In this document: in pieces, positions 8,386-33,864 of the stretch | How positions within the stretch are numbered: position 1 is the stretch's first letter | How the letters are laid out: each line of letters opens with the position of its first letter | Source of the DNA: a virus | DNA: 38,068 nt | Virus record (IMG/VR): IMGVR_UViG_3300028800_000044 | Coordinates: 1 to 38,068 of that record | Reading direction: 5' to 3' (one strand) | Notes under the pieces: model-generated | What the model saw: the letters and a program-made list of their open reading frames with translations, nothing else | What the model was told of the DNA's origin: nothing | The model's database searches: none | Translations under genes and position numbers: made by a program

Positions 8386-8916
8386 ATGGGTGACTTCAAA
8401 ACTCTCTCAATCGACATCGGCAGCACGTTTGGTTACTGCGTGGGCAATAACGGTGTGATTATGGATAGTGGAGAGGTCACCCTTTCTTCTGGCACTGCCG
8501 GTAAGACCCATCCTGGACATCGCTGGTTGCGTTTCCAGAAGTGGCTCGGCCAATACACTGACGTACAGGAAATACTTTTTGAGGACGTGCAGTTTGTCAC
8601 AAGCGCGCAGCAGATGAAAGTCTATGGAGCGCTGCTTGGTATCCTGCAGGTTTTTTGCCTTGCGCACGGTATCCGCATGGCAAGCCTGACACCTGGGCAG
8701 ATAAAAAAGGACTTCACAGGCAATGGCGCTGCCAAGAAAGACGTGCTCTGCGATGTTGCGATACGGCTTGGATGGAAGCACGGAGTTGCAGGCACCATGA
8801 ATAACCACAATGAGGTCGATGCGATTGCGCTTTATTGGGTAACATGCGTCAGACGTGGCGTTGAGCCTAGCTTTTACGCAGAACAAAAATACGAGATTGA
8901 CAACTCTGATGTGTAA
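8386..8916 (+). CDS. RuvC-like Holliday-junction resolvase
   Basis: The 176-residue protein has the RNase H fold residues of RuvC: D10 in LSIDIGSTFGYC, E66 in ILFEDVQF, and E143 and D145 in HNEVDAIAL, with basic TPGQIKKDFTGNGAAKKDVL between. Phage versions cut branched intermediates made by recombination and replication so that DNA can be packaged. The start is the ATG at 8386, four bases after the GapR-like gene, with GAAGG upstream; a longer upstream frame overlaps that gene and is not needed. Confidence 0.88.
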   Translation: MGDFKTLSIDIGSTFGYCVGNNGVIMDSGEVTLSSGTAGKTHPGHRWLRFQKWLGQYTDVQEILFEDVQFVTSAQQMKVYGALLGILQVFCLAHGIRMASLTPGQIKKDFTGNGAAKKDVLCDVAIRLGWKHGVAGTMNNHNEVDAIALYWVTCVRRGVEPSFYAEQKYEIDNSDV

Positions 8917-8937
8917 GGAGTATCTCTAAAAACAGTT

Positions 8938-8967
8938 GGGGAGAAGTTCTTTGCGGAACCTCTCCCC
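8938..8967. terminator. Strong hairpin after resolvase gene, terminator uncertain
   Basis: The arms GGGGAGA and GTTC (8938-8949) pair with GAAC and TCTCCCC (8956-8967) across one mismatch and a six-base loop. No T run follows on the plus strand; on the minus strand GTTTTT occurs seven bases beyond. It may terminate weakly, act as a processing or stability element, or be part of a replication origin in the gene-poor gap. Confidence 0.4.
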
Positions 8968-9221
8968 TGGATAAAGCGGTGGCACCCGCGTTTATTCCGT
9001 AGCAAGATTTTACGCTAAGCAGCATAAGAATCAAGCATGGAATTAGGTGCCGCAGCATATAGCGGTAATAAATTCTGTGCGTATCGGCTGGCCTTAGGGC
9101 AAAAGGATGAGGGGACAAAGACCTTCACCGCACACCACCGCAAAAACTCAGCAGCGCTCACTCACGTCATTTTATGGCCCGTGTGATGTTTTTATCTCCC
9201 TTTCATCGAAGCTACAGAAAA

Positions 9222-9235
9222 GGGGGGTAGGGGGG
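9222..9235 (+). other. Paired G6 tracts (G6-TA-G6)
   Basis: Two runs of six G are separated by TA and preceded by AAAA. Such a pair is far outside the composition of the surrounding sequence. It could form a two-repeat quadruplex between strands or serve as a protein site. No function can be read from the sequence. Confidence 0.6.
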
Positions 9236-9471
9236 AACCTTACTTAAACTCTCCTGCAGCTATCATCTTGCGGACGTGCGCAATCTGATTAAACAACCAC
9301 TGACAGCATGCCAAGCAGGTTCCTATCAACAATAAAGAACGATGGTAACTGGCAAGGGGGTTGCAAAACGAGCTTTCAGGGAGTATTGTGCCTGCTCATC
9401 AGGACATGCAACTCCATCATTGTTCCTGGCGGGCGCGATGTTTCCCAAAATATGCGCAGCTCGCAACTTGG

Positions 9472-9546
9472 TGCGGGGAGGACAAACGGCAAGTCGCCAG
9501 ACTCATAATCTGGAAACAGCGGGTTCAATTCCCGCCCCCGCTACCA
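9472..9546 (+). tRNA. tRNA with CAT anticodon (Met-type), CCA encoded
   Basis: The cloverleaf has acceptor pairs 2-7 (GCGGGG with CCCCGC), a three-pair D stem (GAC/GTC) with GG in the loop, an anticodon stem CCAGA/TCTGG with loop CTCATAA (anticodon CAT at 9504-9506), a five-base variable loop, a T stem GCGGG/CCCGC with loop TTCAATT, and an encoded CCA. Two traits recall initiator tRNA: bases 1 and 72 are T and T, unpaired, and pair 11-24 is A-T. The anticodon stem lacks the three G-C pairs of an initiator. A tRNA-Ile2 read through lysidine is also possible. It lies alone in the gap. Confidence 0.87.
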
Positions 9547-9573
9547 AGCATAAGGATTCCATAAAAATACAAT

Positions 9574-9602
9574 TTGACTTTAGGCAAATCGGTGATTACT
9601 TT
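9574..9602 (+). promoter_or_regulatory. Candidate rightward promoter for replication genes
   Basis: TTGACT (9574-9579), 17 bases, TACTTT (9597-9602). The -35 is near consensus and the -10 moderate. It lies between the tRNA and the gene at 9645 and would give a leader of about 36 bases. The same -10 sequence and spacing appears at 7349-7377. Confidence 0.5.
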
Positions 9603-9644
9603 GGGTAGGTCGATTGGGAAACCGACACAACTAATGGGGGTAAT

Positions 9645-10085
9645 ATGCCAAGCATACAGCAGATAATAGCTGAGATTCAGTTAGCCGACGACCTGCCGCC
9701 AAGCCACAAGGTCAAGGCTGTGCAGATAATCCGTGACGCTGAGCAGCGCCTTAAGCTCAAAAACATTGGCAAGCAGCCTCGCAAGGCCCACGGCAAGAAC
9801 CTGATGATATTGCAGGAGTGGGAGAGCAAGCACGCCACGCTGAGCATCGTGATGATGACGAGCTGGATGGATAGCCACAAACTGTGCTACCTTGCAGTTT
9901 CTGATATGGTAGCTGAGTTTCGCGGCGAGATGATTGCCAAGGGCAAGGAATATGCAAACTTCAAGGCGGCTTTCATGACGTACCTGGCGAAGGGGTATCT
10001 CTCAAAGACACTGGAAGCCTGCACGCTTGAGCGCTCACCGCATAAGCAAAAAACAATAATCGACAACAGAGGGGTTACACTATGA
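9645..10085 (+). CDS. Putative replication accessory protein
   Basis: A 146-residue, basic, helical protein with no motif I can name. Segments ILQEWESKHATLSIVMMTSW and AVSDMVAEFRGEMIAKGKEYANFKAAFMTYLAKG are amphipathic helices. Its four-base overlap with the primase-helicase suggests it works with that enzyme, for instance as a loader or origin-binding protein, but this is inferred from position. GGGGG lies four bases before the ATG. Confidence 0.6.
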   Translation: MPSIQQIIAEIQLADDLPPSHKVKAVQIIRDAEQRLKLKNIGKQPRKAHGKNLMILQEWESKHATLSIVMMTSWMDSHKLCYLAVSDMVAEFRGEMIAKGKEYANFKAAFMTYLAKGYLSKTLEACTLERSPHKQKTIIDNRGVTL

Positions 10086-31900: not shown

Positions 31901-33864
31901 AGTTTGCGGAGAAATTTGAGCGCAACCCCAAAAAGTATGTCGATTATGTTAAAAATCCGCGCGAGATACTGGCAAACTTCTTTGATGCGTATGTCAACAG
32001 CCCTAAGCAGGCAAGAGAGGTAGCGCCCAAGAGCGTTGCAGCGTTTGAGAAGCTGATTGACGAAAACCCACAGCTCCACATGCTGAAAGACATCGCACCC
32101 AGCACACAACGCGCAACAGAAACAATTCAGCGTGAGCTGCTCGACTTCAAGGGGCCAAAGGATAGCGTACCGTTCTATGACAATGGCAAGTTGAAGTTTC
32201 TGCACCTAGACCCAGAGATTGCGAAAGCGTTCAAAGGTCTCGACCAGGTTGACAGCACACTCACGGGCGGATTCTTTGCCAAAATAGGCAAAGCCCAGGC
32301 GCGGTTGCTGCAGTTTGGTGCCACCAATAACCCTTATTTCATCGTGCGCCACTTCCTGCGCGGTGCGCAATCGTCATACGTCAACACGCCAGAGGGCGGC
32401 ATGAAAGGCTTCCTGCAGCACTTCGCCGTTGAGATTCCCAAGGGTATTGCCGCTGTAATTGGCAAGAATGACGCATACCGTGAGTGGGCATCATCCTCTG
32501 GCGCTCTGCGCACGTACATGGATACGAGCTCAGAAGGTATCGCAAAGCTGCACAAAGAAATGTTTGAGCACGCAAATTGGGGTAAGTTCCTTGACCCGCG
32601 CAATTGGGCATCCATTGCCAAGGATGGACTGTTGAAGGGCTGGCAGACGGCAAAGCAGGTATCTGACTACGCGCCGCGCATCGCTGCATACGAGCGTTTG
32701 AAGGGTAAAGGGTATTCTGACCTTGAGGCTGGTTTCTTATCGCTGGAAGCCACAGGCAATTATATCCGCCACGGTGCTCTTGGTAAGGAAATAAACGCCT
32801 ATTCCCCGTTCTTCAATGACCGCCTTCAAGGTGCTGACCGCTTCCTGCGTGCCATAAAACGTGACCCAGGCGGTTACGCACTGCGCGCCGCCGCGCTTAT
32901 CACGATGCCTCAGATTCTGGTTGCTGGGTATTACCTATTTGCCGCTGACGATAAGACGCGCAAGGAATATCTCAACCTCAGCGACTTCCGGCGCAGCGCA
33001 GCGATGAACATCAAGATTGGTGACCACTGGATACCTATACCACGCGCATTTGCACCTGGCTTCGTGTTTGGTGCGCTCCCAGAGTTTGCCATGATACACT
33101 TTTCAGGTGTCGCGCATCCTGAGCTGAAAAACTTCTGGCTTCACATGATTGGCGACACCGTGAGCTCGCTGAGTCCCTCGACAGACTGGACACAAACTAT
33201 TCCGCCAGTCCTCAAGGCTGCCATCGAGCATATTACAAATTATTCGTTTTTCCGCCAGCAGGCCATTTTCCACGGCGACAAGGACAAGACCGCGCCGGAA
33301 AACCAGTATAACTCAACCACGAGCGAGACAGCCAAGGCTATGGGCAAACTGTTCGGCATATCGCCTGCAGACATCGACAACACGGCCTATGACATGGCAG
33401 CTCACATTGGTGTGTACGCAGAGCAGCTCGGTGATTACGCGCTTAATAAAGAACGCAGGCTCTCAGGCCAGCCGGTTAATGAAAGACCCACCAAAGGCTC
33501 TGATAACCCCCTGTATGGCCCTCTACTGCAGCAGCCACCAGTCGGCACTGCCAGTGAGAGCTTCCAGGAGTTCCATGAGCATGAAACCGACCTTGCGCAG
33601 CAGCATAACCGTGACCAAGAGTTTACTGGCAAGGACAAGGCGGACTTTGAACGCGATAACCACCAAGACCTCGCGCTCTATCCGACAATCGCGCGCGCCA
33701 ATACACAGGTGATGCACGAGGAGCACCAGATACGGCTGATTACAGAGAATGTCCACTTAAGCGGGGATGACAAGGCTCAGCTTATTGCACAGCACCAGCA
33801 ACGCATCCAAGCAATCACTGACGGTGCAAACAGTGTTTACAGAAACGTGAAGGGACAGAAATAA
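28963..33864 (+). CDS. Giant internal virion protein with zincin motif
   Basis: The 1633-residue ejection protein (T7 gp16 position) starts at a GTG overlapping the previous TAG, with GGAG upstream. A disordered Pro/Gln-rich head covers about 1-150. The middle has GTLTHEAGHML (H931-E-A-G-H935) with E1001 in NPREILANFFDAY as a likely third ligand, a zinc peptidase pattern. The C-terminal half has a conserved podoviral large polyvalent-protein segment (NPYFIVRHFLRGAQSSYVN, then YSPFFNDRLQGADRFLRA) with membrane-friendly stretches near ALITMPQILVAGYYLF. It likely degrades or crosses the envelope during DNA entry. No lysozyme-like domain is seen at the N-terminus. Confidence 0.85.
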   Translation: MTDLFAEQGINFMSASMASTHPTTTPAPIPAGPPVQQDTAASIYGDNEGHDIPGAPMGNPDPSDMVQQASSQQADPQQITQSLAGAGNEGAGAAGGAPPQPPTPPVDLFEQQGIKSDSIAQLNANAFNQGVTIPPNDPNAGPAPVAEVGGYDKNGKPVVNPVAYAQNQQSDDDKLGRMLFTQQQLDSFKNNPIGFAEGASRVNAYGYALGDNDAAALKLAPIGLKVLNKTPLTQDETNELLAWAKDRTEMNLRGFSWAGRTAYTGLQMPSWIAQFVVSGGIGKAAEAGAERVGVIAAEKGLESAAVRVLTQGSTLMATHYSAAHAEQQLNDISAVTDKGQLIFHDSENSPAKTSLLAFGHTAADVIPQMLTPAIGKYVVQPVTGAVGKLASPITAAAAKLSPQVTTALYSAWKAVAPAYATVSKMFTAAGWNGMVEQLGANRIQQVMNASLDMAGNKHETFDQYMDALTPSKDQLLVEGGLVSIAGGVHAATAITIHLLTSKGVPPPQAAETAANMSSQEKDAFVNQNLPLPKSDAPTLADNAPDKILADRPKTQGTDTAKNIIASATNSENAASPPPIEDKQSGFNAQFKASKVYAEMWNDLQPIENLGKTARAAGAPISESELSPAALSLAKSTPALIERQWTTGTTSWDSEGNQVVTGKGLKQIGDDFDNVMMKDEPNRDARQKDMNDFRKAMTFIEDKTKGYNPVSDKDFNESQATLSRLSDKYGDKIKWFEQFAKEYRDFDNRILHNLVTSGLKTQAWYDDLVGKREWYSSTARVTETEYPEDVAAMKGKGLGADVNPKNIGALKQRKGSTLEVADPVQSSMRNSAIIIRRSMLNKVRGDVAKYAQYFPEQVKVKPPAIIREAVDHSYDPKLRTKLEQVVDFLGGEVKRVQQGEKVGDKKNNLGAYEPGAKAIWMRAGSTEGTLTHEAGHMLDYVLGLKERMLGDHAMKAELEKLSEDRLRSEIKLQQTPEGKTEFAEKFERNPKKYVDYVKNPREILANFFDAYVNSPKQAREVAPKSVAAFEKLIDENPQLHMLKDIAPSTQRATETIQRELLDFKGPKDSVPFYDNGKLKFLHLDPEIAKAFKGLDQVDSTLTGGFFAKIGKAQARLLQFGATNNPYFIVRHFLRGAQSSYVNTPEGGMKGFLQHFAVEIPKGIAAVIGKNDAYREWASSSGALRTYMDTSSEGIAKLHKEMFEHANWGKFLDPRNWASIAKDGLLKGWQTAKQVSDYAPRIAAYERLKGKGYSDLEAGFLSLEATGNYIRHGALGKEINAYSPFFNDRLQGADRFLRAIKRDPGGYALRAAALITMPQILVAGYYLFAADDKTRKEYLNLSDFRRSAAMNIKIGDHWIPIPRAFAPGFVFGALPEFAMIHFSGVAHPELKNFWLHMIGDTVSSLSPSTDWTQTIPPVLKAAIEHITNYSFFRQQAIFHGDKDKTAPENQYNSTTSETAKAMGKLFGISPADIDNTAYDMAAHIGVYAEQLGDYALNKERRLSGQPVNERPTKGSDNPLYGPLLQQPPVGTASESFQEFHEHETDLAQQHNRDQEFTGKDKADFERDNHQDLALYPTIARANTQVMHEEHQIRLITENVHLSGDDKAQLIAQHQQRIQAITDGANSVYRNVKGQK

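Follow-up and report, generated by a model that had tools for sequence, protein, structure and literature searches.

A formylmethionine-specific tRNA coded by phage T5 was reportedly described by Chen et al. in 1975, as the title of that paper has it, and is presumably the product of the T5 gene annotated as 'initiator tRNA fMet' at positions 32428-32505 of AY543070.1. Initiator tRNA has also been identified among the genes encoded by cyanophages (PMC4810235). The canonical bacterial initiator is characterized by an unpaired or weak 1:72 pair, by G2-C71, C3-G70 and G4-C69, which belong to the formylation determinants (PMC9976931, PMC7949028), by an R11-Y24 pair in the D arm, and by three G-C pairs in the anticodon stem. 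For E. coli, it was shown that an initiator with mutated G-C pairs is fully charged and formylated and is poor in P-site binding and initiation (PMC2268962). G30-C40 is contacted by A1339 of 16S rRNA in a type I A-minor interaction, and flipping of this pair resulted in an approximately 20-fold loss of initiation, while G1338 reaches 29:41 through a type II contact (PMC11497404).

The window analysed here is a virus record of IMG/VR of 38,068 nucleotides, with phage genes for Erf, exonuclease VIII, a RuvC-like protein, primase/helicase, terminase, head-tail adaptor, capsid, tail and endolysin. ARAGORN called a single tRNA in the whole 38-kb record, a tRNA-Met(CAU) of 75 nt at positions 9472-9546 on the plus strand. 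The same positions matched the Rfam model RF00005 with 57 bits, compared to a cut-off of 29 bits, and the fold energy had a z-score of -2.8 relative to shuffled sequences. The acceptor stem is formed by UGCGGGG (9472-9478) and CCCCGCU, the latter followed by A73 and an encoded CCA (9536-9546). Both the sequence and a script parse place U1 (9472) and U72 (9542) opposite each other without pairing, and GCGGGG/CCCCGC at 2-7/66-71, with G2, C3 and G4 as in E. coli tRNA-fMet. After A8 and G9 (9479-9480), the D arm GACAAACGGCAAGUC (9481-9495) contains the pairs G10-C25, A11-U24 (9482/9494) and C12-G23, the unpaired A13 and A22, and further A14, A15, G18 and G19. The anticodon arm CCAGA-CUCAUAA-UCUGG (9497-9513, with the anticodon CAU at 9504-9506) is built from C27-G43, C28-G42, A29-U41, G30-C40 and A31-U39, and is followed by the variable loop AAACA (9514-9518), which contributes A48, and by the T arm GCGGG-UUCAAUU-CCCGC with the T loop UUCAAUU (9519-9535). 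A previous reading of this DNA from the letters alone, termed here the sequence-only reading, had pointed out the U1/U72 mismatch, the A11-U24 pair and an anticodon stem with A-U, G-C and A-U in place of three G-C pairs. All of these are present, and 30-40 is the only G-C pair of the three. Further odd features, which that reading did not list, are A8 instead of the usual U8, the unpaired A13-A22, A15, and A48 instead of C or U.

Like the window tRNA, the T5 initiator tRNA-fMet has a CAU anticodon, U1/U72, G2-C71, C3-G70, G4-C69, A11-U24, A29-U41 and G30-C40, with the three G-C pairs incomplete. It differs by U8, a long D arm (GAUCUCUGGUAGAGAUC), U73 instead of A73, U31/G39 instead of A31-U39, and the presence of more than 20 other tRNAs. 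Since the T5 gene shares the trait set, the combination has a precedent in a classic phage, and the features of the T5 type, namely a phage-borne CAU tRNA without G-C at 1:72, with R11-Y24 and with G30-C40 next to two free pairs, are all found in the window. The tRNA-fMet of Agrobacterium and other alphaproteobacterial hosts resembles the window tRNA in the acceptor sequence GCGGGG/CCCCGC from position 2, the unpaired 1:72, A11-U24, A29-U41, G30-C40, CAU and A73. However, it has C1/A72, U8, G12-C23 together with C13-G22, G31-C39 and C48. The tRNA-fMet/Met genes of Felix O1-like and Aeromonas phages also combine CAU and an initiator-type D arm with a relaxed anticodon stem, but show A1-U72 with U73, have U37 in the anticodon loop and are accompanied by several tRNAs. 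The tRNA-Met of Sinorhizobium phage phiM5 (MF074189.1, 7352-7426), the sole tRNA of this 44-kb phage, has the same D-arm motif, A8 and A48; it differs by U1-A72, a U31/U39 mismatch, G11-C24 and its placement after the major capsid gene.

Relatives of the window tRNA were collected with sequence patterns. An earlier pattern anchored in the acceptor gave 68 loci, few of them tRNAs. The first family pattern consisted of the unusual D arm alone, without a constraint on positions 11 and 24. A second D-arm pattern together with phiM5 enlarged the collection to 60 distinct sequences, and of these, 50 were well folded in a fixed-frame parser. The family is defined by the D arm G9-G10-R-C-A-A-A-Y-G-G-N-A-A-G-Y-C and by A8 and A48 together, and the window tRNA carries the motif and both bases. 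Almost all of the about 50 distinct, well-folded D-arm relatives lie in phage or prophage contigs, where all family counts refer to distinct sequences picked by sequence patterns from related contigs and not to independent events. Where the host of a carrier is known, it is rhizobial. Besides phiM5 of Sinorhizobium, these carriers are prophage-type loci of Agrobacterium, Shinella and Rhizobium and megaplasmid copies in Sinorhizobium, of which some are altered. A role of the motif as a general host feature was rejected, as it was present in 1 of 298 genomes of the family of the Agrobacterium genome, namely in the query genome itself, and the motif-bearing Agrobacterium locus is adjoined by phage genes, for example TerS. 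Further matches were found on contigs of more than 150 kb with many tRNAs and, in one case, in a Eubacterium MAG; due to these matches, the family is not limited to rhizobia. Similar tRNA copies are present in 118 rhizobial plasmid records, nearly all from Sinorhizobium and including pSymB. For the copies inspected no annotation is listed, and the copy of S. meliloti 1021, which is not called by ARAGORN, may be decaying.

The mixed traits described in the sequence-only reading exist as a combination, but they are the normal state of a widespread phage initiator-like class, the T5 gene included, and not a one-off hybrid. The window tRNA belongs to a family of putative start tRNAs spread over many phages, and phages may commonly bring their own initiator. 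A published description of the A8/A48 core of this family was not found in the open-access literature, and an earlier one may exist.

At the acceptor end, positions 1 and 72 of the 50 family members are C/A in 13, A/A in 10, U/U in six, C/U in five, A-U in four, U/C and U-A in three each, C/C and A/C in two each, and U-G and G-U in one each. This amounts to 41 mismatches, seven A-U or U-A pairs, two G-U pairs and no G-C or C-G pair. The mismatch itself is conserved while its bases vary, and a sequencing error at U1/U72, which had been named beforehand as a result that would refute the mixed-trait reading, is thus very unlikely, six distinct family members having U1-U72. Of the 50 members, 48 have G2-C71, 48 have C3-G70 and 46 have A73. 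Although positions 11 and 24 were free in the search, every motif-bearing CAU tRNA among the matches listed has A-U or G-C (R-Y) at 11:24. The window tRNA contains the complete set of initiator and formylation signals (U1/U72, G2-C71, C3-G70, G4-C69, A11-U24, A73, CAU and CCA), and the suggestion that it could be formylated holds at the level of these signals, which are conserved in the family. In several phage initiator-like tRNAs, such as those of Aeromonas phage AS-zj, Erwinia phage Omen and Salmonella phage BD13, U73 replaces A73, and U37 is present in the anticodon loop of two; neither base would be expected for MetRS recognition and initiator function.

The usual tRNA core contains the tertiary pairs U8-A14 and R15-Y48. 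Within the D-arm family, A8 and A48 occur together in 42 of 50 members and U8 with C or U48 in seven, leaving one exception (Fisher p = 8e-8, with relatedness ignored). Since the search pattern prescribes A14 and A15, the tertiary pairs 8-14 and 15-48 change jointly. With this unusual core (A8, A15/A48), folding or modification of the window tRNA could be impaired.

Of the 50 D-arm family members, 40 have G30-C40 in the anticodon stem, 26 have G31-C39 and 12 have G29-C41, and all three pairs are present in two. An independent scan from the T arm and the 3' end, in which A or U was required at position 72, added phage tRNAs that are initiator-like and have an ordinary D arm. After removal of four host-like sequences, the pooled phage initiator-like set comprised at least 114 sequences; among the matches listed, G30-C40 is present in 100 of 114 (88%), G31-C39 in 49%, G29-C41 in 23% and all three pairs in seven. 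Phage elongator-like CAU tRNAs have G30-C40 in 70% (p = 0.013 versus the initiator-like set, 0.004 after clustering, among the matches listed), and since the pair is common there as well, the difference is real but modest. Retention of G30-C40 with 29:41 and 31:39 set free fits the structural work on the A-minor contacts. The idea that such a tRNA is not strictly held at the P site was correct in that two of the three G-C pairs are missing, but it is too strong, as G30-C40 is kept. The remark that alphaproteobacterial initiators vary at these pairs applies to 29:41, where the host initiators sampled have A29-U41, but not to 31:39, where all of them keep G31-C39. With the T-arm/3'-end pattern, the host initiators in 299 Pseudomonadota genomes have C39; the matches without C39 all have U39, with no G39 or A39, and the U39 matches that were read have G1 and C11-G24 and are of the elongator type.

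The window tRNA is best explained as, and probably is, an initiator tRNA encoded by the phage in which the anticodon stem, by which the ribosome grips it, is relaxed. It is kept apart from the canonical bacterial initiators because 30-40 alone is G-C, the unpaired 1:72, the G2-C71/C3-G70/G4-C69 series and R11-Y24 being canonical. A small TFAM-like log-odds score, trained on 30 host CAU tRNAs (10 initiators and 20 of elongator type, mostly from alphaproteobacteria), gave +21 bits for the window tRNA, +26 for the T5 tRNA-fMet and -13 and -32 for two elongators, and all 35 CCA-bearing family members were on the initiator side; the window value lies far below that of host initiators (at least +86) and derives mainly from the D arm. 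This score argues against an elongator tRNA-Met, a very unlikely identity for which A31-U39, present in many elongators, and the U72-A73 ending (GCUACCA) of host elongator-type CAU tRNAs could be adduced. The host elongator-type CAU tRNAs sampled have C11-G24, however, and the Y11-R24 and paired 1:72 typical of elongators are replaced by A11-U24 and U1/U72 in the window tRNA; in the D-arm family, R11-Y24 is the rule and a strong 1:72 pair almost never occurs. The gain from an elongator would be one tRNA for AUG, a codon of ordinary use (24.8 per 1000).

A tRNA-Ile2 that reads AUA with lysidine at C34 might be of profit to the phage, as AUA accounts for 170 of 653 Ile codons (26%) in the main ORFs. 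E. coli tRNA-Ile2 likewise has A31-U39 and G30-C40, which counts for this identity. It is nevertheless very improbable: where E. coli has C4-G69, U12-A23 and C29-G41 as determinants of Ile identity (PMC9976931), the window tRNA has G4-C69, C12-G23 and A29-U41, and the unpaired 1:72 and R11-Y24 kept by the family would be of no use to Ile2. A tRNA-Ile2 with lysidine determinants was the other outcome named beforehand as contrary to the mixed-trait reading, and all three determinants fail. The non-standard core (A8, A15/A48) and the absence of the tRNA from the four nearest phage relatives, identified through the primase, could also be taken as signs of a decaying pseudogene or an attachment-site remnant. 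Such an origin has very little probability, since the cloverleaf is complete with an encoded CCA, the odd core is common to 42 of 50 relatives, and the stems vary with pairing kept. The gene is moreover internal to the record, upstream of the replication genes and not terminal, and no integrase was identified among the ORFs scanned. Its absence from the four closest relatives marks the window copy as an accessory gene.

As an initiator, the window tRNA would be charged by host MetRS, given its CAU anticodon and A73. Formylation by the host formyltransferase (Fmt) is expected because of the unpaired 1:72 together with G2-C71, C3-G70, G4-C69 and A11-U24. IF2 would then carry the fMet-tRNA to the P site of the 30S subunit, where G30-C40 should still offer 16S A1339 its strong contact, with the G-C pairs at 29:41 and 31:39 lost. 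During infection the tRNA may supplement or replace host tRNA-fMet, to the presumed benefit of the phage.

Among 24 related virus and phage records of at least 30 kb, one of which is a Mesorhizobium phage with a U8 relative and a different D arm, the tRNA is the sole tRNA in 18. Codon supply, the usual account of phage tRNAs, cannot explain a lone initiator-like tRNA; extra initiation capacity or replacement of a host tRNA-fMet destroyed by a toxin may do so. A possible, if doubtful, reason for its existence, which leaves its identity untouched, is that it resists a nuclease such as VapC that destroys host tRNA-fMet, with the altered 31:39 and 29:41 as escape changes. VapC toxins, one of which comes from the alphaproteobacterium Bosea, cleave tRNA-fMet where the anticodon stem joins its loop and spare elongator tRNA-Met (PMC8522696), and escape of phage tRNAs from nucleases through anticodon-loop changes has already been proposed (PMC10264068). 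Besides the solitary occurrence in phage records, it speaks for this reason that position 39, at the border of stem and loop, is G in 42 of 114 phage initiator-like tRNAs among the matches listed, compared to C39 in the host initiators of the 299 Pseudomonadota genomes. This frequency is no more than suggestive, since a 31:39 pair simply free of constraint would be expected to vary likewise. Against it, half of the phage tRNAs in this set retain G31-C39, and the changes are dispersed and not concentrated on one base, which fits a simple loss of constraint at pairs that the ribosome reads loosely. In addition, tRNA-fMet is generally not encoded by phages of VapC-bearing S. flexneri (PMC10264068).

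It is tentatively proposed that phages of many lineages encode an initiator tRNA dedicated to this role, often as their sole tRNA, with a core rewired by the joint A8/A48 switch and with only G30-C40 kept, in order to seize initiation or to survive nucleases that destroy tRNA-fMet. If true, this class would show phages acting at the initiation step, and would provide a concrete, testable link of phage tRNAs to initiator-cutting toxins such as VapC. The phage family would further represent a natural mutagenesis of the three G-C pairs, in which 29:41 and 31:39 were discarded and G30-C40 was retained, as predicted by the A-minor structures.

Near and distant DNA searches with the tRNA region, and a near search with 24 kb in annotated phages, gave no match. 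Searches with TerL and primase identified remote relatives only, none of them among genome contigs, and a search with the major capsid protein gave one match of 29%. The tRNA is located in a noncoding region of 728 nt (8917-9644) between the RuvC-like gene and a small ORF at 9645. A large phage RNA of the GOLLD or ROOL type near the tRNA was considered and rejected, as no match to the Rfam models was obtained at E values up to 5 in 8900-9700; for other Rfam families, nothing notable beyond tRNA-like matches was found in the noncoding region around the tRNA. The tRNA lies between two hairpins whose loops, GTTTCCCAA (9440) and TTGGGAAAC (9614), are complementary. Similar hairpin pairs with different stems are present in the nearest relatives, and in two of these, L003 and L004, both loops are changed to CC/GG from CCC/GGG. 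These loops suggest a kissing loop or a paired operator. In the same noncoding region, the G-rich run AAGGGGGGTAGGGGGG at 9219-9235 is common to L004 (8942-8958), and a similar run is present in L003. On the minus strand, a strong hairpin of 12 pairs followed by a T run (8938-8967) has the appearance of a terminator.
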